This document shows positions 14,887-42,077 of a stretch of 59,954 nt of DNA, piece by piece. Numbering within the stretch: position 1 is the first letter of the stretch; each line of letters opens with the position of its first letter. The stretch comes from Candidatus Enterenecus stercoripullorum (GTDB lineage Bacteria; Bacillota; Clostridia; Oscillospirales; Oscillospiraceae), in NCBI GenBank assembly GCA_018716015.1, contig DVKM01000029.1, forward strand, positions 1-59,954, written 5' to 3'. The notes beneath the pieces were generated by a model that saw only the letters and a program-made list of their open reading frames with translations, was not told where the DNA came from and made no database searches. The position numbers and the translations under genes are program-made.

Positions 14887-15981
14887 TCATTTGAGCGTGT
14901 TTACGGCTGCTACGGCATCTGCCGTGTCTGGATGGATATACCGCTGGGTCGTACTGAACTTAGTGTGTCTCATGACCTTCTGAATCACGCTAGGGGCCAC
15001 ATTGTTTCCAAGCGCCAGAGCCGTGGCGGTAGTGTGCCGGCAGGAATAGGGCGGAAGGTCCCGGACGCCAGCGCGCTGAAGCGCGGCGTGATACTCTTCA
15101 TAAAACGTCCAGCGGTTCATTCCGACCACATATTTTCTCCCGTTGCTGGTCTCAATCAGGTTTTGCAGGACTGGGGCCAACAGGTCAGGAAACACGATGG
15201 GCGTCTCCTTGCGCTTTTTGGTTTTCAATCCACAGCCTACGATCTCGTTTTTATCCCATTGTACCATATCCGGTTCAAACTGGCAGAGTTCGCCGGGCAT
15301 CATACCGGTATAGATCATCAGCAATACGCAGCCGATGATCCGGTCCCCTTTTTCGTATGCGTCCCACAGTTTATGCAGCTCGATCTCGGTGAAGGGCTGC
15401 AGCTCCTTCTCATCCAGCGGCGGGAGCCGAATGAACTGGGCCAGGTTTGTCCTGGCAGAGCCCTCGGCCACAGCCCTGGTGTAGAGATGGGACAGCAGGG
15501 TTTTCATGTCTTTCGCCGGATAGTAGGTCGGCGCCTTGTCATCAATGCAGTCCTGGAGCATGTTGATGGTGATCGCATCCATGCGCTTTCCGGCCAGCGG
15601 CTCCAGCTTATTCCATGCGATATTAAAGGCGGTCTGCTTGGATTTAGACAGGTCCAGCATATCACTTTTGCTCCAGCCTGTCCAGTAGTTGCGGAGCGTG
15701 GGGGACTCGACTTCCTCCACCGGCGCCGCCGCATAGGCCAGGGCCTCCCGCTTTGTGGCAAAGCCGCCCTTCCACTTCCGCTTCTGGTGGATCTTCTTCT
15801 CCTCGCCGTCTGGGTATATCTCCGTGGTCCAGACCGCCGTCCAGGTCCGCCCCCGCTTGATGGCGCAGCCCTGGCCGTTGCCCCGGGTGCGCCGGCTCCT
15901 GGCCGGGTTCTGCTCAGCTCCGCACTGACAACAGAACTTACTGTCGTCCGGTATTTCCGCATGGCACTTCCGGCACTTCAT
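14887..15981 (-). CDS. Tyrosine-type site-specific integrase with N-terminal zinc ribbon
   Basis: MKCRKCHAEIPDDSKFCCQCGAEQ ribbon; C-term YSCRHTTATALALGNNVAPSVIQKVMRHTKFSTTQRYIHPDT. Confidence 0.93.
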   Translation of the reverse strand: MKCRKCHAEIPDDSKFCCQCGAEQNPARSRRTRGNGQGCAIKRGRTWTAVWTTEIYPDGEEKKIHQKRKWKGGFATKREALAYAAAPVEEVESPTLRNYWTGWSKSDMLDLSKSKQTAFNIAWNKLEPLAGKRMDAITINMLQDCIDDKAPTYYPAKDMKTLLSHLYTRAVAEGSARTNLAQFIRLPPLDEKELQPFTEIELHKLWDAYEKGDRIIGCVLLMIYTGMMPGELCQFEPDMVQWDKNEIVGCGLKTKKRKETPIVFPDLLAPVLQNLIETSNGRKYVVGMNRWTFYEEYHAALQRAGVRDLPPYSCRHTTATALALGNNVAPSVIQKVMRHTKFSTTQRYIHPDTADAVAAVNTLK

Positions 15982-17080: not shown

Positions 17081-17851
17081 TCAATACTTCGCGCGGAGCT
17101 CCACCACCCGGCCGATGACCCGGACGGGCAGGCGCTCCGCATCGGCGGCGCTGTAAAACTGCACATCGTGGACCGGGTTGGTGGGGATCAGAGAGATCCC
17201 ATCCGGCCCGTATTTTATTTTTTTGACGGTGGCGCTGTCCCCGTTGACCAGCACCACCACGGTGTCGCCGGTCTCGGCGCTGTCCTGCTTGCGGACGATG
17301 ACCACGTCGCCCTCCATCATCCGGGGCTCCATGCTGTCCCCCTTAATGCGGAGGCCGAAAAACTCCCCCGTGGCAGCCAGGGCGGCGTCGATCTCCTCAT
17401 AGTCCACGATATCTGTGATGGCCTCAATGGGGATGCCGGCAGCCACATCGCCCAGGACGGGAATGCGACGGCCACATTGCTGAGCCATTTTGATGAGGTG
17501 ATCCATTGATTGAACCGCAGCGTTGATAGTCTCATCCTGCGCCTCTATGACTCCTTGGTACAAATCGTTTAATTGCTGCGAGGTTTTGAGCTTTTTGCTT
17601 TCATCCGAGATATGCTTTTCTCCTTCTCCAGAGAACAGCCAAATTGGGGTAGTATGAAGAATATCGCTAATTGGTCCAAGCTTCCCAGAGAATGAGCTGC
17701 TTTTACCCTTCTTCCAATCAGTGACAGTTTGAGAAGATATGTTCAACATATCGGCAAAATCTTTTTGAGATATATTGGACTCTTTCAGCAGTTCAAAAAT
17801 TCTGCTTCGAATATCATCATAGCTATTTAGAAGTTTATCCAAAAATCTCAC
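17081..17851 (-). CDS. CI/LexA-like phage repressor (HTH plus S24 peptidase), GTG start
   Basis: HTH NISQKDFADMLNISSQTVTDWKKGK; VLGDVAAGIP cleavage-type site; GDSMEPRMMEGDVVIVRKQ; DSATVKKIKY. Confidence 0.93.
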   Translation of the reverse strand: MRFLDKLLNSYDDIRSRIFELLKESNISQKDFADMLNISSQTVTDWKKGKSSSFSGKLGPISDILHTTPIWLFSGEGEKHISDESKKLKTSQQLNDLYQGVIEAQDETINAAVQSMDHLIKMAQQCGRRIPVLGDVAAGIPIEAITDIVDYEEIDAALAATGEFFGLRIKGDSMEPRMMEGDVVIVRKQDSAETGDTVVVLVNGDSATVKKIKYGPDGISLIPTNPVHDVQFYSAADAERLPVRVIGRVVELRAKY

Positions 17852-19569: not shown

Positions 19570-20400
19570 ATGCCATTGACCAGAATTCAGGGATATGGCC
19601 ATGTGGCGGCCAGGTATGGCCTGGAGGAGGCCATCTTCCTGGACGGCATCGTCCACTGGTACCGGGTGAACCGGGCGGACGGGCGTAACTACCATGACGG
19701 CCGGTGGTGGACCTACAACTCCATCGCCGCCTACACGGACCAGTACCCCTGGTGGTCTGCCAAGCAGATCCGCCGGATCGCGGCCAGCCTACGGGACCAG
19801 GGGGCACTGCTTACCGGCAATTACAACACCAACGGCCGGGACCGGACCATCTGGTACAGCCCAAGCGATGAGGCCCTGGCCCTGTACGGTATCCCTGCCG
19901 AGGATGCCCAAACGGGAAATTGCATTTGCCCAAATGGGCAAATGCAGATGCCCGAACAGGCAAATGCAGATGCCCAAACGGACCAACCATTACCATGTAG
20001 TTACCATGAGGTTACAAACACACCCCCCTATAGTCCCCCCATGGGGGACCCGCAGGAGGAGAAGCCAAAACCAAAGGCCAAGCCCAAGAAAACGGAACCT
20101 TACAAGCTGGACTGGTTTGAGGCGTTCTGGAAGATATACCCCAGGAAGGACAACAAGCAGGCGGCCTTGAGGGCCTGGTGCAAGCTCAAGCCGGACCGGG
20201 CGCTGTGCGGTGTGATGGCCGCGGCGCTGGAGCGGGACAAGTACTCCAAGCAGTGGTGCAAAGACGGCGGGGAGTTCATTCCCATGGCATCCACCTGGAT
20301 CAACCAGAGCCGGTGGAATGACCAGGGGGTGGATCAATCTCAGCTCCCGGATCCTCCGGATGACGGAGGCTGGGCTCCTGACCCGGAGGTGATCGAGTGA
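19570..20400 (+). CDS. Phage replication initiator (O/DnaD-like with wHTH N-terminus)
   Basis: Winged-helix-like N-term, Pro/Lys-rich linker, C-term LDWFEAFWKIYPRKDNKQAALRAWCKLKP; followed by DnaB. Confidence 0.8.
   Translation: MPLTRIQGYGHVAARYGLEEAIFLDGIVHWYRVNRADGRNYHDGRWWTYNSIAAYTDQYPWWSAKQIRRIAASLRDQGALLTGNYNTNGRDRTIWYSPSDEALALYGIPAEDAQTGNCICPNGQMQMPEQANADAQTDQPLPCSYHEVTNTPPYSPPMGDPQEEKPKPKAKPKKTEPYKLDWFEAFWKIYPRKDNKQAALRAWCKLKPDRALCGVMAAALERDKYSKQWCKDGGEFIPMASTWINQSRWNDQGVDQSQLPDPPDDGGWAPDPEVIE
19903..19990. repeat. Four tandem 22-bp iterons (putative phage origin)
   Basis: gatgcccaaacgggaaattgca / tttgcccaaatgggcaaatgca / gatgcccgaacaggcaaatgca / gatgcccaaacggaccaaccat at 19903, 19925, 19947, 19969. 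Confidence 0.8.
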
Positions 20401-21791
20401 ATGGGGAAGTGATGGGAACCGGCGGGGAGGCACAGCAGTCGGTGATTGGCTCCATGCTTATCGATGACCGTTGCGTACCTGTTGTACTTGCTAAGATACG
20501 GGCGGAGGACTTCACCGACGGCACCTGCCGGGCCACCTTCCGGGCCATCCAGAAACTAATCCTATCCGGCCGGCCGGTGGACCCAGTGACCGTGGTGGAT
20601 GAGATGGCAGGCAAAGAGGGGTATGTCCAGTGGCTGCGGCAGGTGATGGAGCTCACCCCTACTGCTGCCAACGTGGAGACCTACATAGACATCACCAAGC
20701 GATCCGCTCAGCTGTACCAGCTCAGGTCTCTGGCGGACCAGATGCTGGCCACCTTTGACCTGGACAGCGCCGCCGCCTTGGTGCGCAAGATGTCTGGCCT
20801 GCTCTCCTCCGCCTCCCGCATGCCCCGGATGACAGGGGTGGAGCTGGCGGCGGACTTTCTGGACCGGATGAAGCGCACGGACAAGCCAGAGTACATCCCC
20901 TGGGGCATCCCCTCAGCGGATCGGATGGCCTACGCGGAGCTGGGGGACATGATCCTGCTGGGTGGCTATGCCTCCGCCGGAAAAACCCTGTTGTCAATCC
21001 TCATGGCCCTGGGCCAGGCCAAGCGGTACCGGGTGGGCTACTACACCCTGGAGACCAAACCGGAGAAAATGGCTGACCGGATTTTTGCCCATCTGGCCAA
21101 GGTCCCCTTGGACAAGATCAAGACCCGGGACTTCGGGGACGGAGAGTGGGCCAGGATCGCCCAGGCAGCTAGCGACTATGCGGTTCATTGCCCCTTTGAC
21201 ATCATCCGGGCGGCCGGTAGCAGTGTAGATGATATCGCCGCGGATGCAGTAGGACACGGTTACCAGATCGTTTATGTGGACTACCTCCAGCTCATTGAGG
21301 CGCCGGGCATCCGTCCAGGGGATCGCTACGCAACGGTGACCGCTGTCAGCCGTGGGCTGAAGCTGTTTGCGCAGAGCACAGGGACAGCGGTGGTCGCCCT
21401 GGCCCAGCTGTCCCGACCGGACAAGGTGGGCAAGGACAAAAAGCCAGTACCGCCCTCCATGGCCTCCTTCCGGGAGTCCGGCCAGATCGAGCAGGACGCG
21501 GATATGGCGTTTTTACTCTGGAGTGCGGAGCAAGAGAATAATCAGGCGCGCCGGGTGCTGAAGCTGGCCAAAAACAAAGAGGGCCGGAAGTTTCGGGTGG
21601 AGCTGGACTTTGACGGCGCCACCCAGACCATGACGGAGGTTGAGTCTGAGGGAAGGCAGGTGGCGGCCAAGTTTAGTGCGAATGGCCGTGCCATCCAGCA
21701 ACGCAACCGTGCCAAGGCCAAACAAATGACATTCGAGGAGCTGTCGGCAGGAGAGGGGGACAACCCGTTTGAGAACGAGCGAGATCAGTAA
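20397..21791 (+). CDS. Replicative DNA helicase DnaB
   Basis: EAQQSVIGSMLIDDRCVPVVLAKIRAEDF; Walker A GGYASAGKT; YQIVYVDYLQLIEAPG; SFRESGQIEQDADMAFLLW. Confidence 0.93.
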   Translation: MNGEVMGTGGEAQQSVIGSMLIDDRCVPVVLAKIRAEDFTDGTCRATFRAIQKLILSGRPVDPVTVVDEMAGKEGYVQWLRQVMELTPTAANVETYIDITKRSAQLYQLRSLADQMLATFDLDSAAALVRKMSGLLSSASRMPRMTGVELAADFLDRMKRTDKPEYIPWGIPSADRMAYAELGDMILLGGYASAGKTLLSILMALGQAKRYRVGYYTLETKPEKMADRIFAHLAKVPLDKIKTRDFGDGEWARIAQAASDYAVHCPFDIIRAAGSSVDDIAADAVGHGYQIVYVDYLQLIEAPGIRPGDRYATVTAVSRGLKLFAQSTGTAVVALAQLSRPDKVGKDKKPVPPSMASFRESGQIEQDADMAFLLWSAEQENNQARRVLKLAKNKEGRKFRVELDFDGATQTMTEVESEGRQVAAKFSANGRAIQQRNRAKAKQMTFEELSAGEGDNPFENERDQ

Positions 21792-21984
21792 GCAAGTGAA
21801 TATCCTCCTGTTGGAAGCGGGGCGGCATGAAAAATTGGCGGCGATATCCAGGGAAGATGTCATTGCCAAAGGTCATCGGGAGACCGCGAGGGCGCTGAGG
21901 CTGGCGGCCCAGTTTATCAAGCTGCAGGTCAAACTCATTCCGATTTCTAAGGGGCTTGCCCTTAAGAAATATAAAATTTTTTGA
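21769..21984 (+). CDS. Small hypothetical phage protein
   Basis: TTG start overlapping the dnaB end; MRTSEISKQVNILLLEAGRHEKLAAISREDVIAKGHRETARAL. Confidence 0.45.
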   Translation: MRTSEISKQVNILLLEAGRHEKLAAISREDVIAKGHRETARALRLAAQFIKLQVKLIPISKGLALKKYKIF

Positions 21985-21997
21985 AAGGGAGATCACC

Positions 21998-22780
21998 ATG
22001 AGAACATTTGCAATTTTGAATATGAAGGGTGGCGTTGGGAAGACCACCACCGCCATCAACCTGGCATACATCCTGGCTACCGCCTACCAGCAGCGGGTAC
22101 TGCTGGTGGATGCAGATGGCCAGGCTAATGCCACCCGGGCCCTGCTGCCGGCCGGGGAGTATGACGGGCTGACTGCTCTGCTGTCTGGCCATGTGATCTG
22201 CTACGACGAGGTCGTTGAGCATACAGAAATCAGCGGGCTGGACATGGTTCCGGCAAGCAACTCTCTTTGGCAGATCGACCTATCCTGCATCACGCGGGAT
22301 GGCCCCGGTACGCTCAGAGCTCTGCGGGATATGCGGGACGCCATTACAGAGGACATCGCCTACGACGTGATGATCATTGATTGCCCGCCCAGCTTTTCCG
22401 GGGCCTGCGCCGCAGCCATTGCGGCCAGCAACAGTATCATCATCCCGGTACTGCCTGATGCTTTCTCCGCCGAGGGAATGGAGGATCTGGTGGCGCAGAT
22501 TGACGGAGTGCGCAGGATCCAGCCAGATGTGCGCATTGCCGGCTGTTTGATCAACCAATTCCACACGGCGGATGTAGTGCTTGACGCTACGGAGTACCTG
22601 CGGGAGTCAGCGCCTGTACCCGTATTTGACACGGTGATCCACCGCACCGATAAGGTGTTGGAATCCACCTGGGCGCATCAGCCGGTGCTGCTCTGGTCTC
22701 CCCGTAGTTCAGCCGCCCGGGATTTTCGGTCCTGGGTGCGGGAGCTAGTGGCAAAGGAGGCGCTGTGTAATGGCCGGTAA
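21998..22780 (+). CDS. parA: ParA-family partition ATPase
   Basis: MRTFAILNMKGGVGKTTTAINLAYIL; VLLVDADGQANATRALL; DVMIIDCPPSFSG; ATG behind AAAGGGAG. Confidence 0.93.
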   Translation: MRTFAILNMKGGVGKTTTAINLAYILATAYQQRVLLVDADGQANATRALLPAGEYDGLTALLSGHVICYDEVVEHTEISGLDMVPASNSLWQIDLSCITRDGPGTLRALRDMRDAITEDIAYDVMIIDCPPSFSGACAAAIAASNSIIIPVLPDAFSAEGMEDLVAQIDGVRRIQPDVRIAGCLINQFHTADVVLDATEYLRESAPVPVFDTVIHRTDKVLESTWAHQPVLLWSPRSSAARDFRSWVRELVAKEALCNGR

Positions 22781-27674: not shown

Positions 27675-27876
27675 ACAATCCCGAAAGCGCAATCTCCGTC
27701 GGATCAACATTGTGGTCACAGCCCAGACGGTGGGCAGCCTGGCCTATCTGGCCAAGATGTGCAACTACCCTGAGATCGGCATGGCGGTGGACAAGCTGAC
27801 CCGGGAGAAGATGCTCAGTCTGCGGGCCTGGGGCTCCGGGAGTCGGCGGGCAAAGCGGGGTGATCACGATGGCTAA
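27667..27876 (+). CDS. Small basic hypothetical protein
   Basis: MGKQSRKRNLRRINIVVTAQTVGSLAYLAKMCNYPEIGMAVDKLTREKM. Confidence 0.55.
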   Translation: MGKQSRKRNLRRINIVVTAQTVGSLAYLAKMCNYPEIGMAVDKLTREKMLSLRAWGSGSRRAKRGDHDG

Positions 27877-28675
27877 GGTCCTGCGCACAGTGGAGGCGGG
27901 TAGGCTGCGGTATGCGGTGCTCTACGACCGATACTCGCCGGCCGACCCGCCCCGGGCCCGGGCGGAGAAGCAGCGGGCCAGCTCAGCAGCCCGGCAGGCG
28001 CTCAACATGAGGACCAGCTGTCAGCGGTTGGAGTGCCTGCTGTTTTCCAACTTCGGCCGGGACGATTGGCTGGTGACTCTTACATATGATGACGCGCACC
28101 TGCCAGCAAACTGGGAAGCGGCCATCAAGCAGGCCAAAAAGTTTATCCGCACTCTGCGAGAGCACCGGCGGCCGCGAGACCAGCCTCTACGCTATGTCTA
28201 TGTGACAGAGGACAAGCACGGCGATGGGCGCGTCCACCACCACATGGTGGTCAACGGCACCGGCGAAGATATGGAGACCTTCCGCTCATTATGGACCAAT
28301 GGGATCGTTCTGATGCAAAACCTCAGGCCCAGAGAGTTCCCGGCCTTGGCCCGATATCTCACTAAGGAGCCGCGGGAGTACGGCCGGGTGGATGTGGGCG
28401 CCCGGAATTGGTCCGCATCCAGAGGTCTGGCCAAGGCGGTGGCGCCGCCGGCGGAGATCGTGCCAGACATCTTGACCCTCCAAGCTCCTCCTGGAGCATA
28501 TATATTAGAAAACGAGGGGACGATGGTCAATGAGTTCGGCAACTACCAATTCATCAAATACCTTATGCCGGACCAGGAGGACTACCGGGTGCCTCTGGAG
28601 GTATCCACCGACCCGGAGCTGGACCTGACGCCCTGGCGGTACGCGCCGGAGCGGCGGAAGAGGAAAACTGCATAG
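27869..28675 (+). CDS. HUH-type rolling-circle replication-associated (G2P/ORF2-like) protein
   Basis: DDWLVTLTYDDAHLP; LRYVYVTEDKHGDGRVHHHMVVNG (His cluster); ALARYLTKEPRE (Tyr/Lys). Confidence 0.72.
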   Translation: MAKVLRTVEAGRLRYAVLYDRYSPADPPRARAEKQRASSAARQALNMRTSCQRLECLLFSNFGRDDWLVTLTYDDAHLPANWEAAIKQAKKFIRTLREHRRPRDQPLRYVYVTEDKHGDGRVHHHMVVNGTGEDMETFRSLWTNGIVLMQNLRPREFPALARYLTKEPREYGRVDVGARNWSASRGLAKAVAPPAEIVPDILTLQAPPGAYILENEGTMVNEFGNYQFIKYLMPDQEDYRVPLEVSTDPELDLTPWRYAPERRKRKTA

Positions 28676-30346: not shown

Positions 30347-30832
30347 ATGCCGGGACCGAGACAGCCCACGGATGTGATCAAGGCCAAGGGGCGAAAGCAC
30401 CTGTCCAAGGCCGAGGAGGCCCAACGGCGGGCCGGGGAGGTGCAGGTGGAGCGCCCCAAGACGGTGAAGGTGCCCAAGTGGGTGCCGGAGGACCTGAAAA
30501 AGGACTTCCGGGCCCTGGGCAGGAAGCTGCTGGCGGCGGGGCTGTACACCGATCTGGACGGGGACACCCTGGGGCGGTACCTCATTGCCCAGCGGCAGTA
30601 CCTTATCGCCACGGAGGAGACGGACAAGGCCCTGGCCCGGAAGGACCAGGAGGAGGCGGACGCCTGGGGTAAGGTGTTGGACCGGCATTTTAAGCAGGCC
30701 CGGGCGTGCGCTAACGACATGGGGCTGACGGTGACCAGCCGGTGCCGGCTGGTGGTGCCGGACAGCCCGCAGAAGGGGGAGGAGGACAATCCCTTCCTCC
30801 AGCTGATCCAGGGAGGCCAGAAACGTGCCTGA
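30347..30832 (+). CDS. Phage terminase small subunit (P27-like)
   Basis: MPGPRQPTDVIKAKGRKHLSKAEEAQRRAGEVQ; directly upstream of TerL. Confidence 0.85.
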   Translation: MPGPRQPTDVIKAKGRKHLSKAEEAQRRAGEVQVERPKTVKVPKWVPEDLKKDFRALGRKLLAAGLYTDLDGDTLGRYLIAQRQYLIATEETDKALARKDQEEADAWGKVLDRHFKQARACANDMGLTVTSRCRLVVPDSPQKGEEDNPFLQLIQGGQKRA

Positions 30833-32567: not shown

Positions 32568-32747
32568 ATGAAGAAGTTGATGAAAAATCTGGCCCGGTAT
32601 GCCATGGACCTGGTACTGGCGGCGGGAGCCGCCGCCGTGGCGGTGGGCGCCGGGATGATCTACCTGCCGGCGGGGCTGATCACCGGGGGCGTGCTGGCCA
32701 TCGCCGGGGCGGTGCTGTCCAGCGTGAGCGGAGGTGATGGCGGATGA
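32568..32747 (+). CDS. Small hydrophobic phage protein
   Basis: KKLMKNLARYAMDLVLAAGAAAVAVGAGMIYLPAGLITGGVLAIAGAVLSSV. Confidence 0.6.
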   Translation: MKKLMKNLARYAMDLVLAAGAAAVAVGAGMIYLPAGLITGGVLAIAGAVLSSVSGGDGG

Positions 32748-34128: not shown

Positions 34129-34866
34129 GTGAACGAGTTTTGCAAGGCTGCCCGCATTGAAAAGTCGGCGGCCGTGGATGAGGGGGAGCTGGCGCTGATC
34201 AACGCTCAGGCCCTCCGGCCGCTGGCGGCAGAAGAGGTGTTTGTTTTCCGTCTGGCGGCCTGTGACGACCAGGTGGACCGGGATTTTGAGCGGTTCACCA
34301 AAGACTGCTTGGAGGCGCTGGCCCCGCTGTACGTGGGTAAGCCGGTGCTCAAGGACCACCAGTGGAGGGCCGGAGAACAGACCGCCCGGGTGTATGCCGC
34401 CCAAGTGGAGACCCGGGACGGTGTGAGCCGGCTGGTGCTGCGCTGCTACATGCCCCGGACGGAGGGGACGGCGGAGACCATCACCGCCATTGAGAGCGGC
34501 ATGCTCCGGGAGTGCTCCGTGGGGGTTGCAGTGGGCCGGGCGACCTGCTCCATCTGCGGAGCCAACCAGCTGGAGACGCTGTGCAAGCATGGCGGCGGAC
34601 GGGAGTACGACGGCCAGGTGTGCCACTTTGACCTGGACGACCCCAGGGACGCCTACGAGGTGAGCCTGGTGGCGGTGCCTGCCCAGAAGGAGGCGGGAAT
34701 TATCAAGGCCAAGCGGTACGGCGGCGCTCAGCCGCTGGAGGACACAGACCCACCGGGGGGAGGCCCCGGAGACGATAGCCAGAACTGGCAGGCCAAGGCC
34801 CTGCTGGAACTGGAGAAAAACCGATTTAATTTGGAGGGAAGCGAAGATGAGACGCAAACTGATTGA
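34129..34866 (+). CDS. Prohead protease-like protein
   Basis: DDQVDRDFERFTKDCLEALAPLYVGKPVLKDHQWRAGEQTARVYAAQVE; location between portal and capsid. Confidence 0.8.
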   Translation: MNEFCKAARIEKSAAVDEGELALINAQALRPLAAEEVFVFRLAACDDQVDRDFERFTKDCLEALAPLYVGKPVLKDHQWRAGEQTARVYAAQVETRDGVSRLVLRCYMPRTEGTAETITAIESGMLRECSVGVAVGRATCSICGANQLETLCKHGGGREYDGQVCHFDLDDPRDAYEVSLVAVPAQKEAGIIKAKRYGGAQPLEDTDPPGGGPGDDSQNWQAKALLELEKNRFNLEGSEDETQTD

Positions 34867-39986: not shown

Positions 39987-42077
39987 ATGCCGAAAAACGG
40001 AGTCAGCTTATATTTTACCATCCGGGACGGCGGGTCCCAGGTGCTCAGCGCCATTGGGGATAAAACCAAGGCGCTGGACAAAGAGACTCAGAGCCTGGCT
40101 CAGGCTCAACAGGCCCTTCAAAAGGCCAATGAAAGCCTGACACGCCGCCAGACAGAGCTGAAAACCGCCCTGGAAAAGAGTCAGGTAGCGGTGAAGGACG
40201 CCAGATCGGAATTTCGGAAGCTGCATGACGAGGCCAGCGGGAACAAACTCCAGGATGCCATTGAGGAGCAGGAGGAGCTCAAGCGCTCCCTCCGGGATGT
40301 GGAAGATCAGCTGAAGAGCAATTCCAAAACCTTTAATGAGTACCGGGAGACCCTGCGCAAAGGCAGTGCGGGGAGCGGCTCCGGCGGAAGCGGCTCGTCG
40401 GTGCTGTCCACCCTGGGGCAGGCGGGCGCCTTTGCGTTTCTGGGTGACGCGGCGGCTCAGTGGGGCACCACCCTGGCGGACTCGGCCTTTGGCAACGGAG
40501 CCGGATCAGTGCTCAGCTCCGCCCTGTCCGGGGCAGGCAGTGGGGCGGCGATTGGCTCAATGATAGGGGGGCCGGTTGGCACTGCCATCGGTGCAGCCTT
40601 GGGCCTAGTGGTGGGTGGTTTATCCGGCGGCTCCCAGATCTATGAGGAGCAGGACGACGCATTCAAAAGCTACGTCCAGGAGGGCGCGGAAAGCGCCCTG
40701 TCTGATCAGCAGGAGCGGACGGAGACTGGCTCCACCATTGCTGGAAGCCGGGAGCAGACCCAGATGGCCTTTGCCCAGCGGCTGGGCAGCGACGAGGCGG
40801 CGGCGGAGTACCTGGCCCAGGTGCGGACCATGGCGGCCCGTACCAACTACGGCTACGACGAGATCACCGGCTACTCTAAACTGCTGCTCAACAGCTACGA
40901 TCCGGAGGAGGTCTTTGGGGTACTTCAGTCCCTCAGCGACGCTACAGCGGCATTGGACCTGTCCAGCAGCGACATTGAAGTGATGATCTCCGGCCTGAGC
41001 CGGATGCGCACCACGGGGAAAGCCACGCAGGAGTATCTGAACTTCTTTTCGGAGCGGGGCGTGGACGTATATGACGCTCTTGGACAAGCCATTGGGGTGG
41101 ACAAGAGCCAGGTTTCCGATATGGTGACCGACGGCGAAATTGGCGGCGTGGAGGCAGCCCAAGCGATCCTGGACTACATTGACCAGGAGTTCGGCGGGCT
41201 GAGCGAAAAGCTGATGGGCACCTATGATGCTATGGTGGATAACTTGTCTGATGCTGAGGCCAATTTGCAGGCTCGGGCCGGGGAAGGATACAACGAGACC
41301 CGAAAGCAGGGAATCCAGGCCCAGCAGGAGTGGATGGAGGATAAGGAGGGCGAACTGGGCGACGCCTACTCTATGATCGGGCAGTGGCAGGCCAGCCTGG
41401 AAAACTTGGCAGAGGAGTATGAACGGGCCGCTTTGGACGCTGTGATGAGCGGCACGGCGTCTGACCTCTATGAAGGTAGCGATCAGCAGGCCCGGCTGGA
41501 AGAGCTGGCCCAGGAGTACCAGAGCGCCCTGGCGGACTATGAGGCCGGCAATGAGGAGGCAGGAGCCAGAATGGGGCAACTGCTGGCAGAAGCCCAGATC
41601 ATCGCGCAGAACGAGTACAACGCCAGCGAAGGTGCACAGCTGGCGCTCCAGTCCCAGCTGGATTTGGCTGAAACCATCCGAGAGGACACGGCCAGCAATG
41701 AGGCGTACTGGAACGCTGGATATCGAAAGGGGCAGGAGTTCAGTAAGGGCATGGCTGCGGCCTGGTGGCGCGGCGGCAGCTCTGATGTAGAACCTGGCGC
41801 CATGATTCTGAACGCGGCGGGCGAGGTTGTCCCCGCGGGCGGGTATGCCATGGGGCTGGATAGAGTCCCCTACGATAATTTTCCCGCTCTGCTCCACGAG
41901 GGGGAGCGGGTGCTGACGGCCAACGAGGCCAGAGCCATGGACCAGGCCAACGGTGTACAAGTGAGCATAGGGTCGGTGTCCATCGGCGGAAGTCTGGGTG
42001 GTGTATCCATCCTGGATATTGCCATGGAGATTGCCAAAGAGCTGGAGCGGGCGGCTGTGGTAGCAGTCCCCAGATGA
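39987..42077 (+). CDS. Tail tape measure protein
   Basis: Coiled-coil N-term, Gly/Ala hydrophobic centre, 696 aa; follows frameshift chaperone. Confidence 0.9.
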   Translation: MPKNGVSLYFTIRDGGSQVLSAIGDKTKALDKETQSLAQAQQALQKANESLTRRQTELKTALEKSQVAVKDARSEFRKLHDEASGNKLQDAIEEQEELKRSLRDVEDQLKSNSKTFNEYRETLRKGSAGSGSGGSGSSVLSTLGQAGAFAFLGDAAAQWGTTLADSAFGNGAGSVLSSALSGAGSGAAIGSMIGGPVGTAIGAALGLVVGGLSGGSQIYEEQDDAFKSYVQEGAESALSDQQERTETGSTIAGSREQTQMAFAQRLGSDEAAAEYLAQVRTMAARTNYGYDEITGYSKLLLNSYDPEEVFGVLQSLSDATAALDLSSSDIEVMISGLSRMRTTGKATQEYLNFFSERGVDVYDALGQAIGVDKSQVSDMVTDGEIGGVEAAQAILDYIDQEFGGLSEKLMGTYDAMVDNLSDAEANLQARAGEGYNETRKQGIQAQQEWMEDKEGELGDAYSMIGQWQASLENLAEEYERAALDAVMSGTASDLYEGSDQQARLEELAQEYQSALADYEAGNEEAGARMGQLLAEAQIIAQNEYNASEGAQLALQSQLDLAETIREDTASNEAYWNAGYRKGQEFSKGMAAAWWRGGSSDVEPGAMILNAAGEVVPAGGYAMGLDRVPYDNFPALLHEGERVLTANEARAMDQANGVQVSIGSVSIGGSLGGVSILDIAMEIAKELERAAVVAVPR

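Follow-up and report, generated by a model that had tools for sequence, protein, structure and literature searches.

In phage lambda, helicase function is encoded directly downstream of the gene O. The origin of lambda and of Stx phages lies in the middle of O, where imperfect inverted-repeat iterons stand beside an AT-rich tract (PMC7466680). Phage SPP1, which replicates by the theta mode with a phage DnaB-type helicase, carries its origin oriL in gene 38, so that direct repeats and an AT-rich unwinding element are found inside the gene for the origin-binding protein (PMC6316719). In RepA_N plasmids the origin is central in rep, and the iterons are semi-palindromes around an A-tract (PMC5703833, PMC7145576); in pSK41 this central origin encodes a linker (PMC5703833). 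Within this group, the N-terminal domain and the origin have been swapped together, as in pPR9, which has a phage-like N-terminal domain (PMC5703833, PMC7145576, PMC8263062).

Here we analyze a locus with a similar layout in Candidatus Enterenecus stercoripullorum, a gut bacterium of the Oscillospiraceae. The window, that is, the whole stretch of DNA that was analyzed (59,954 nucleotides), is one complete contig of a 1.83-Mb assembly with 114 contigs. A prophage lies within it, with genes for an integrase (14887-15981, minus strand), a CI-like S24 repressor (17081-17851, minus strand), a terminase large subunit (at 30825), a portal (at 32744), a head protein (at 34847) and a tape measure protein (at 39987). 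The phage replication initiator gene (19570..20400, plus strand) encodes 276 aa, comprising an N-terminal winged helix, a disordered linker and a C-terminal helical domain. It is overlapped by 4 bp by the next gene, which codes for a DnaB-like replicative helicase (20397..21791, plus strand; PF03796 E 3e-39, PF00772 E 2e-18). A ParA-like partition gene (21956-22780) lies 3' of the helicase gene, as it also does in Flavonifractor phage Cormatin; this is a plasmid-like trait, yet the phage has an integrase. The sign of the GC skew switches near 17-18 kb, in the neighborhood of the repeats described below and not at them; GC skew was rejected as an origin marker, being uninformative within a prophage contig.

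The initiator and its 22-bp iterons

The initiator matched the PHROG replication-initiation families phrog_270, phrog_11233 and phrog_9474 (E 1e-26 to 1e-20; profile E-values of 9e-26 for phrog_270 and 5e-24 for phrog_11233). Together with the adjoining helicase gene, these matches support the original prediction that the gene encodes a replication initiator. No Pfam family (E up to 0.1) and no NCBIfam entry was matched, and a sequence search of solved structures gave nothing relevant. An AlphaFold model of moderate confidence (mean pLDDT 65.7) placed a winged helix within the N-terminal ~100 residues (blocks mostly at 70-88), followed by a disordered stretch at residues 115-174 (<50) and a helical C-terminal domain. 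The predicted winged-helix elements are a helix (residues 52-58), a recognition helix (64-76, encoded by 19759..19797, plus strand) and a two-strand wing (80-84, 94-98). Residues K65, Q66 and R68, at the N-terminal end of the predicted recognition helix, are invariant down to 21% identity in an alignment (A3) of 16 members, six of which had been found via the iteron. When the model was compared with the PDB using Foldseek, the structures 4pql, 5kbj and 4pt7, which we take to be RepA_N initiators, appeared at ranks 1, 2, 7 and 10. These matches were weak (E 0.03-0.14, probability 0.92-1.00, TM to target about 0.54), and those among viral structures were phage replication proteins and replisome organizers. 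The identity of 4pql, 4pt7 and 5kbj as RepA_N initiator structures is taken in part from PMC7145576.

Inside this gene, TRF detected a single array at 19903-19981, with a period of 22, 3.6 copies, 78% matches, a score of 109 and the consensus GATGCCCAAACGGGCAAATGCA; it was the best of only four TRF arrays in 60 kb. Three full copies lie on the plus strand at 19903..19924, 19925..19946 and 19947..19968, followed by a partial copy of 13 bp at 19969..19981. The original prediction had proposed four copies. Its starting positions were confirmed, as were three of the copies at full length, but the fourth matches over 13 bp only and the remaining positions, 19982-19990 (GACCAACCA), do not match, so that the array ends at 19981 and not at 19990. 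The palindrome proposed at copy 2, GCATTTGCCC-AAAT-GGGCAAATGC, is exact at 19922-19945 and has a 4-bp center. The string TGCCCRAAYRGGCA has two exact matches in the 1.83-Mb assembly, both of them within the array. In the AlphaFold model, the residues encoded by the iterons fall within the disordered stretch or just before it, in agreement with the predicted location of the repeats in a linker between a wHTH-like N-terminus and the C-terminal domain.

Since 22 is not a multiple of 3, the copies encode different peptides, and it had been argued on this ground that selection acts on the DNA. We found support well beyond the period itself, both in codon shuffles and in codon identity among relatives. 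The period-22 score of the array was 33.6, compared to a mean of 11.2 and a maximum of 30.0 in 5000 synonymous-codon shuffles that kept the protein, so that none of the 5000 reached it; the next best region of the window scored 14.6. Among ten relatives, identical residues inside the array were encoded by identical codons in 657 of 732 cases, against 410 expected from the rest of the gene. This corresponds to a fraction of 0.90 within the array, compared to 0.52 in the N-terminal and 0.59 in the C-terminal part of the gene.

Co-variation of iterons and winged helix

The original prediction had proposed a comparison of iterons and initiators in related phages, and when this was carried out the iteron sequence was seen to follow the winged helix. 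Repeats at about residues 98-150 of the initiator were present in every one of nine named phages that share the winged helix and whose hosts belong to eight genera (Burkholderia, Bacillus, Bacteroides, Listeria, Staphylococcus, Lactobacillus, Flavobacterium and Vibrio), and the repeat sequences are quite different. The best period was 22 in five of these phages, 45 (about double) in three and 24 in one, and in each phage the best score exceeded all 100 codon shuffles. Repeat cores among them include GCTC-AAAA-TGAGC in a Staphylococcus phage, AGCC-AAAC-GGCT in a Vibrio phage and GGTC-AAAA-TGACC in a Bacillus phage.

The residues at the start of the recognition helix track these differences. Among the initiators gathered here, with one mismatch allowed and iteron-found loci left out, TGCCC-N4-GGGCA cores were present with 13 of 13 initiators having KQ at residues 65-66, but with only one of 15 non-KQ initiators (p 7.5e-7 by a Fisher test, which ignores shared ancestry). 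In six close relatives (L005, L006, L009, L011, L014 and L010) KQ is replaced by AQ, GQ or RQ (AQ in L005, GQ in L009 and RQ in L010); in their arrays the GCCC/GGGC halves are largely lost and the outer CATTTG and CAAATG are kept. We also scanned the 2.9 million viral contigs of IMG/VR for TGCCCAAAYGGGCAAATGCA, using DNA only. Eight contigs were recovered, seven of which encode the same winged helix at 28-63% identity, while in the eighth the contig ends within the gene. The linker of the open frame holds the repeats in each of the eight, and several have different C-terminal domains. Conversely, in L016 and L012 the C-terminal domain is shared, with N-terminal domains and linkers of other kinds. 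A relative at L023:3995-4948 has a second iteron block, of the CPNGQM type, ~90 bp upstream of its main array.

As judged from sequence, these data support co-variation of the iterons with the winged helix. The N-terminal domain and the iterons would thus constitute one exchangeable module, as in RepA_N plasmids. KQ at the start of the recognition helix would predict the iteron half-site, and the origins of many uncultured phages could then be located from their sequence.

The AT-rich stretch and the C-box

Beyond the iterons lie two elements that the original prediction did not include. The AT-rich stretch at 19987..20022 (plus strand), a candidate unwinding element, has 22 of its 36 bases as A or T, compared to about 40% regionally (regional GC about 0.60). 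Among the ten relatives the codons for residues 141-151, in this stretch, are as constrained as those of the array (0.90). Between the iterons and the next element, TTACCATG occurs twice, 11 bp apart, and TTAC occurs a third time at 11-bp spacing (19990-20013). This next element (20023..20047, plus strand), here called the C-box, consists of C6-TATAGT-C6, AT and G5 (CCCCCC TATAGT CCCCCCATGGGGG) and has the potential to form a C/G hairpin. The order at the locus is therefore iterons, AT-rich stretch and then CCCCCTATAGTCCCCC-NNN-GGGGG. The fraction of identical codons in the C-box is 76%, compared to 50-59% elsewhere in the gene. Its DNA is kept in relatives though their N-terminal domains differ and though the codon frame is not the same in all of them, one of the two frames in use yielding PPYSPP and the other PPIVPP; the third frame would hold a stop codon. 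Since the two frames give different peptides, we rejected a protein motif, and the recurring PPYSPP / PPIVPQ peptides of phage initiators can be explained as by-products of a DNA signal.

In IMG/VR, CCCCCTATAGTCCCCC was present in at least 120 stretches, compared to five for a reversed control motif, which was at least 24 times rarer. When the middle two bases were left free, they were AG in 60 and AA in 37 of the approximately 120 matches listed. The rarity of the reversed motif and the predominance of AG or AA (97 of the ~120 listed) led us to reject chance C-runs. The fuller form CCCCCTATARTCCCCCNNNGGGGG was found at 29 loci, a census that is complete for this exact pattern, while figures for the shorter motif are lower bounds or hold among the matches listed. 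In 26 of the 29 loci, the motif lay about 124-214 residues into an initiator-like ORF of 222-405 aa, and at least 21 of these 26 ORFs matched a replication-initiation family. By BLASTP, their N-terminal halves formed nine clusters and their C-terminal halves six. The 30 bp upstream of CCCCCTATARTCCCCCNNNGGGGG had an A+T content of mostly 0.6-0.9.

We further considered 31 C-box initiators among the matches listed for the shorter motif, a set that partly overlaps the 29-locus census. Repeats with a period of 20-24 (score at least 14) were present within 200 bp upstream of the box in 45% of them and in none of 100 control windows (p 4e-14); none had such repeats on the other side of the box. In these 31, the last 30 bp before the box were 18 points higher in A+T than their surroundings. 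The order that such initiators have in common is thus that of the window: iterons, AT-rich stretch, C-box. A G5 partner, as required for the hairpin, was present in 15 of the 31 coding and in five of 115 non-coding cases among the matches listed, so neither the partner nor the hairpin is essential. A fixed orientation was also rejected, since at least two DUF1376-type initiators with 22-bp repeats have the box on the opposite strand (L027:10830-10845; L100:2903-2918).

The C-box occurred in four of 117 genomes of the host order and in three of 399 genomes of a phylum sample, and four of its five places outside the genome of the window were in phage initiators. Being rare and mostly within phage initiators, it is not a general bacterial sequence. 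Among named phages, it is present in Flavonifractor phage Cormatin and, with C4 in place of the longer runs, in Erysipelothrix phage SE-1. The nine named winged-helix phages considered above yielded no C-box, so that the element is not obligatory. The motif strings did not appear in the open-access literature searched, most subscription journals and older phage-origin papers lying outside that search, and the C-box appears not to have been described before.

In viral contigs, a non-coding form, C7-TATART-C7, adjoins genes for the small terminase subunit or for a T7-type large one (L039:1054-1069, L072:9728-9743, L087:3524-3539 and L142:3052-3067). It was rejected as an iteron origin, as there are no repeats above background nearby; it may instead serve in packaging, mark a genome end or be a second origin. 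No non-coding form was found near the terminase in phages P-SCSP2, ProddE and CRP-171.

We infer that the C-box in initiator genes is part of the origin. It is independent of the type of DNA-binding domain and of C-terminal domain, and therefore its partner is more likely to be a component that replisomes share, the machinery of polymerase and primase, or the DNA itself through some structural property. On balance, and with some reserve, we favor the view that C5-7-TATART-C5-7, often followed by n2-5-G5, is a general, undescribed element of phage origins, which is located 3' of the iterons and an AT-rich stretch in the initiator gene, acts independently of domain type and serves a step common to many replisomes; the non-coding form near podovirus terminase genes is perhaps related. 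In many initiator genes the AT-rich stretch is delimited on one side by a conserved C-rich element, which would point to a shared step of origin opening or replisome loading.

A probable phage origin and its relation to known systems

We conclude that a temperate phage very probably has its replication origin here, within the gene that encodes its own initiator: the tandem repeats lie inside this gene and are conserved as DNA, with a candidate unwinding element beside them. By analogy with the systems outlined above, the winged helix would bind the iterons, the AT-rich stretch would melt and the C-terminal domain would recruit replication proteins. In such a scheme, K65, Q66 and R68 at the start of the recognition helix may contact the palindromic TGCCC-AAAY-GGGCA cores, whose 22-bp spacing, about two helical turns, would set several initiator dimers on one face of the DNA. 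The lined-up dimers could then strain the AT-rich stretch just downstream (19987-20022) and open it, and the C-terminal domain may help to load the DnaB helicase that the phage itself encodes in the adjoining gene. The C-box (20023-20047) would bound the opening and probably serves a common later step, e.g. helicase or primase placement.

The same repeats might instead be initiator sites for autoregulation or copy control, acting as an operator or through handcuffing, with replication starting elsewhere. A candidate start is the nick site of a second replication protein of the same prophage, a G2P-like rolling-circle-type Rep encoded ~8 kb from the iterons (27860-28675; PF23343 REP_ORF2-G2P E 3e-15, phrog_3584 E 1e-54), and iterons of Rep_3 plasmids can regulate transcription too (PMC5703833). 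However, the array lies inside the gene and not at its promoter, it is directly followed by an AT-rich stretch that is constrained as DNA, and the helicase gene adjoins that of the initiator. Moreover, the same layout recurs in unrelated initiators, and the equivalent position is the origin in lambda, SPP1 and pSK41. We therefore regard a purely regulatory role as improbable, although a second or alternative origin is possible because the prophage encodes this Rep. It is much less probable still that the repeats work in the transcript, as a strong RNA hairpin controlling translation or transcription of the replication genes. RNA of 19895-19995 does fold better than 200 of 200 shuffles (z -4.2), but a strong fold is expected of any tandem palindrome, there is no Rfam match and no terminator at the array, and an RNA hairpin would not require the iteron sequence to track recognition-helix residues. 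That the array, which is coding and in frame, is a repetitive peptide linker with DNA similarity as a by-product can be practically dismissed, given the different peptides from each copy, the loss of the repeat upon synonymous-codon shuffling and the far commoner identical codons in the array than in the rest of the gene.

As an origin, the locus can be compared with several known systems. Like lambda and Stx phage O, it has iterons next to an AT-rich tract in mid-gene and helicase function encoded downstream, and the analogy with lambda ori within O drawn in the original prediction holds. In contrast to the 22-bp iterons of the window, those of lambda/Stx O are 19 bp long and present in four or six copies, and lambda P is a helicase loader, whereas the next gene in the window encodes the helicase itself. 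There is no lambda O-type sequence match (no Pfam match; the best PHROGs are other initiation families). SPP1 oriL shares the repeats and AT-rich element within the initiator gene and the DnaB-type phage helicase, and differs in that SPP1 relies on gp39 as a separate loader and has oriR as a second origin. Cormatin and SE-1 likewise have a C-box after an AT-rich stretch in the initiator gene, and both differ in their N-terminal DNA-binding domain and iterons. Cormatin has 24-bp iterons, with DnaB and ParA downstream, while in SE-1 the box is flanked by C4 runs and lacks the G5 partner, and the repeat is only weak.

RepA_N plasmids are closer than lambda. The RepA_N replicons pSK41 and pTZ2162, as well as RepA of the V. 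cholerae satellite PLE, use an N-terminal winged helix to bind semi-palindromic iterons converging on an A-tract (PMC5703833, PMC7145576, PMC8263062); the window has a predicted winged helix and semi-palindromic iterons around an A-tract (TGCCC-AAAY-GGGCA), central in the initiator gene. Unlike in RepA_N replicons, the helicase is phage-encoded and adjacent, and a C-box follows the AT-rich stretch. The initiator did not match the RepA_N sequence family PF06970 (no Pfam family, E up to 0.1) and, having no Pfam match at all, falls outside it. Judged by its predicted features, the locus behaves like RepA_N and lambda origins while being by sequence a member of neither. Collectively, its layout places it among the origin-in-initiator systems, beside lambda O, SPP1 oriL and, above all, the RepA_N plasmids.
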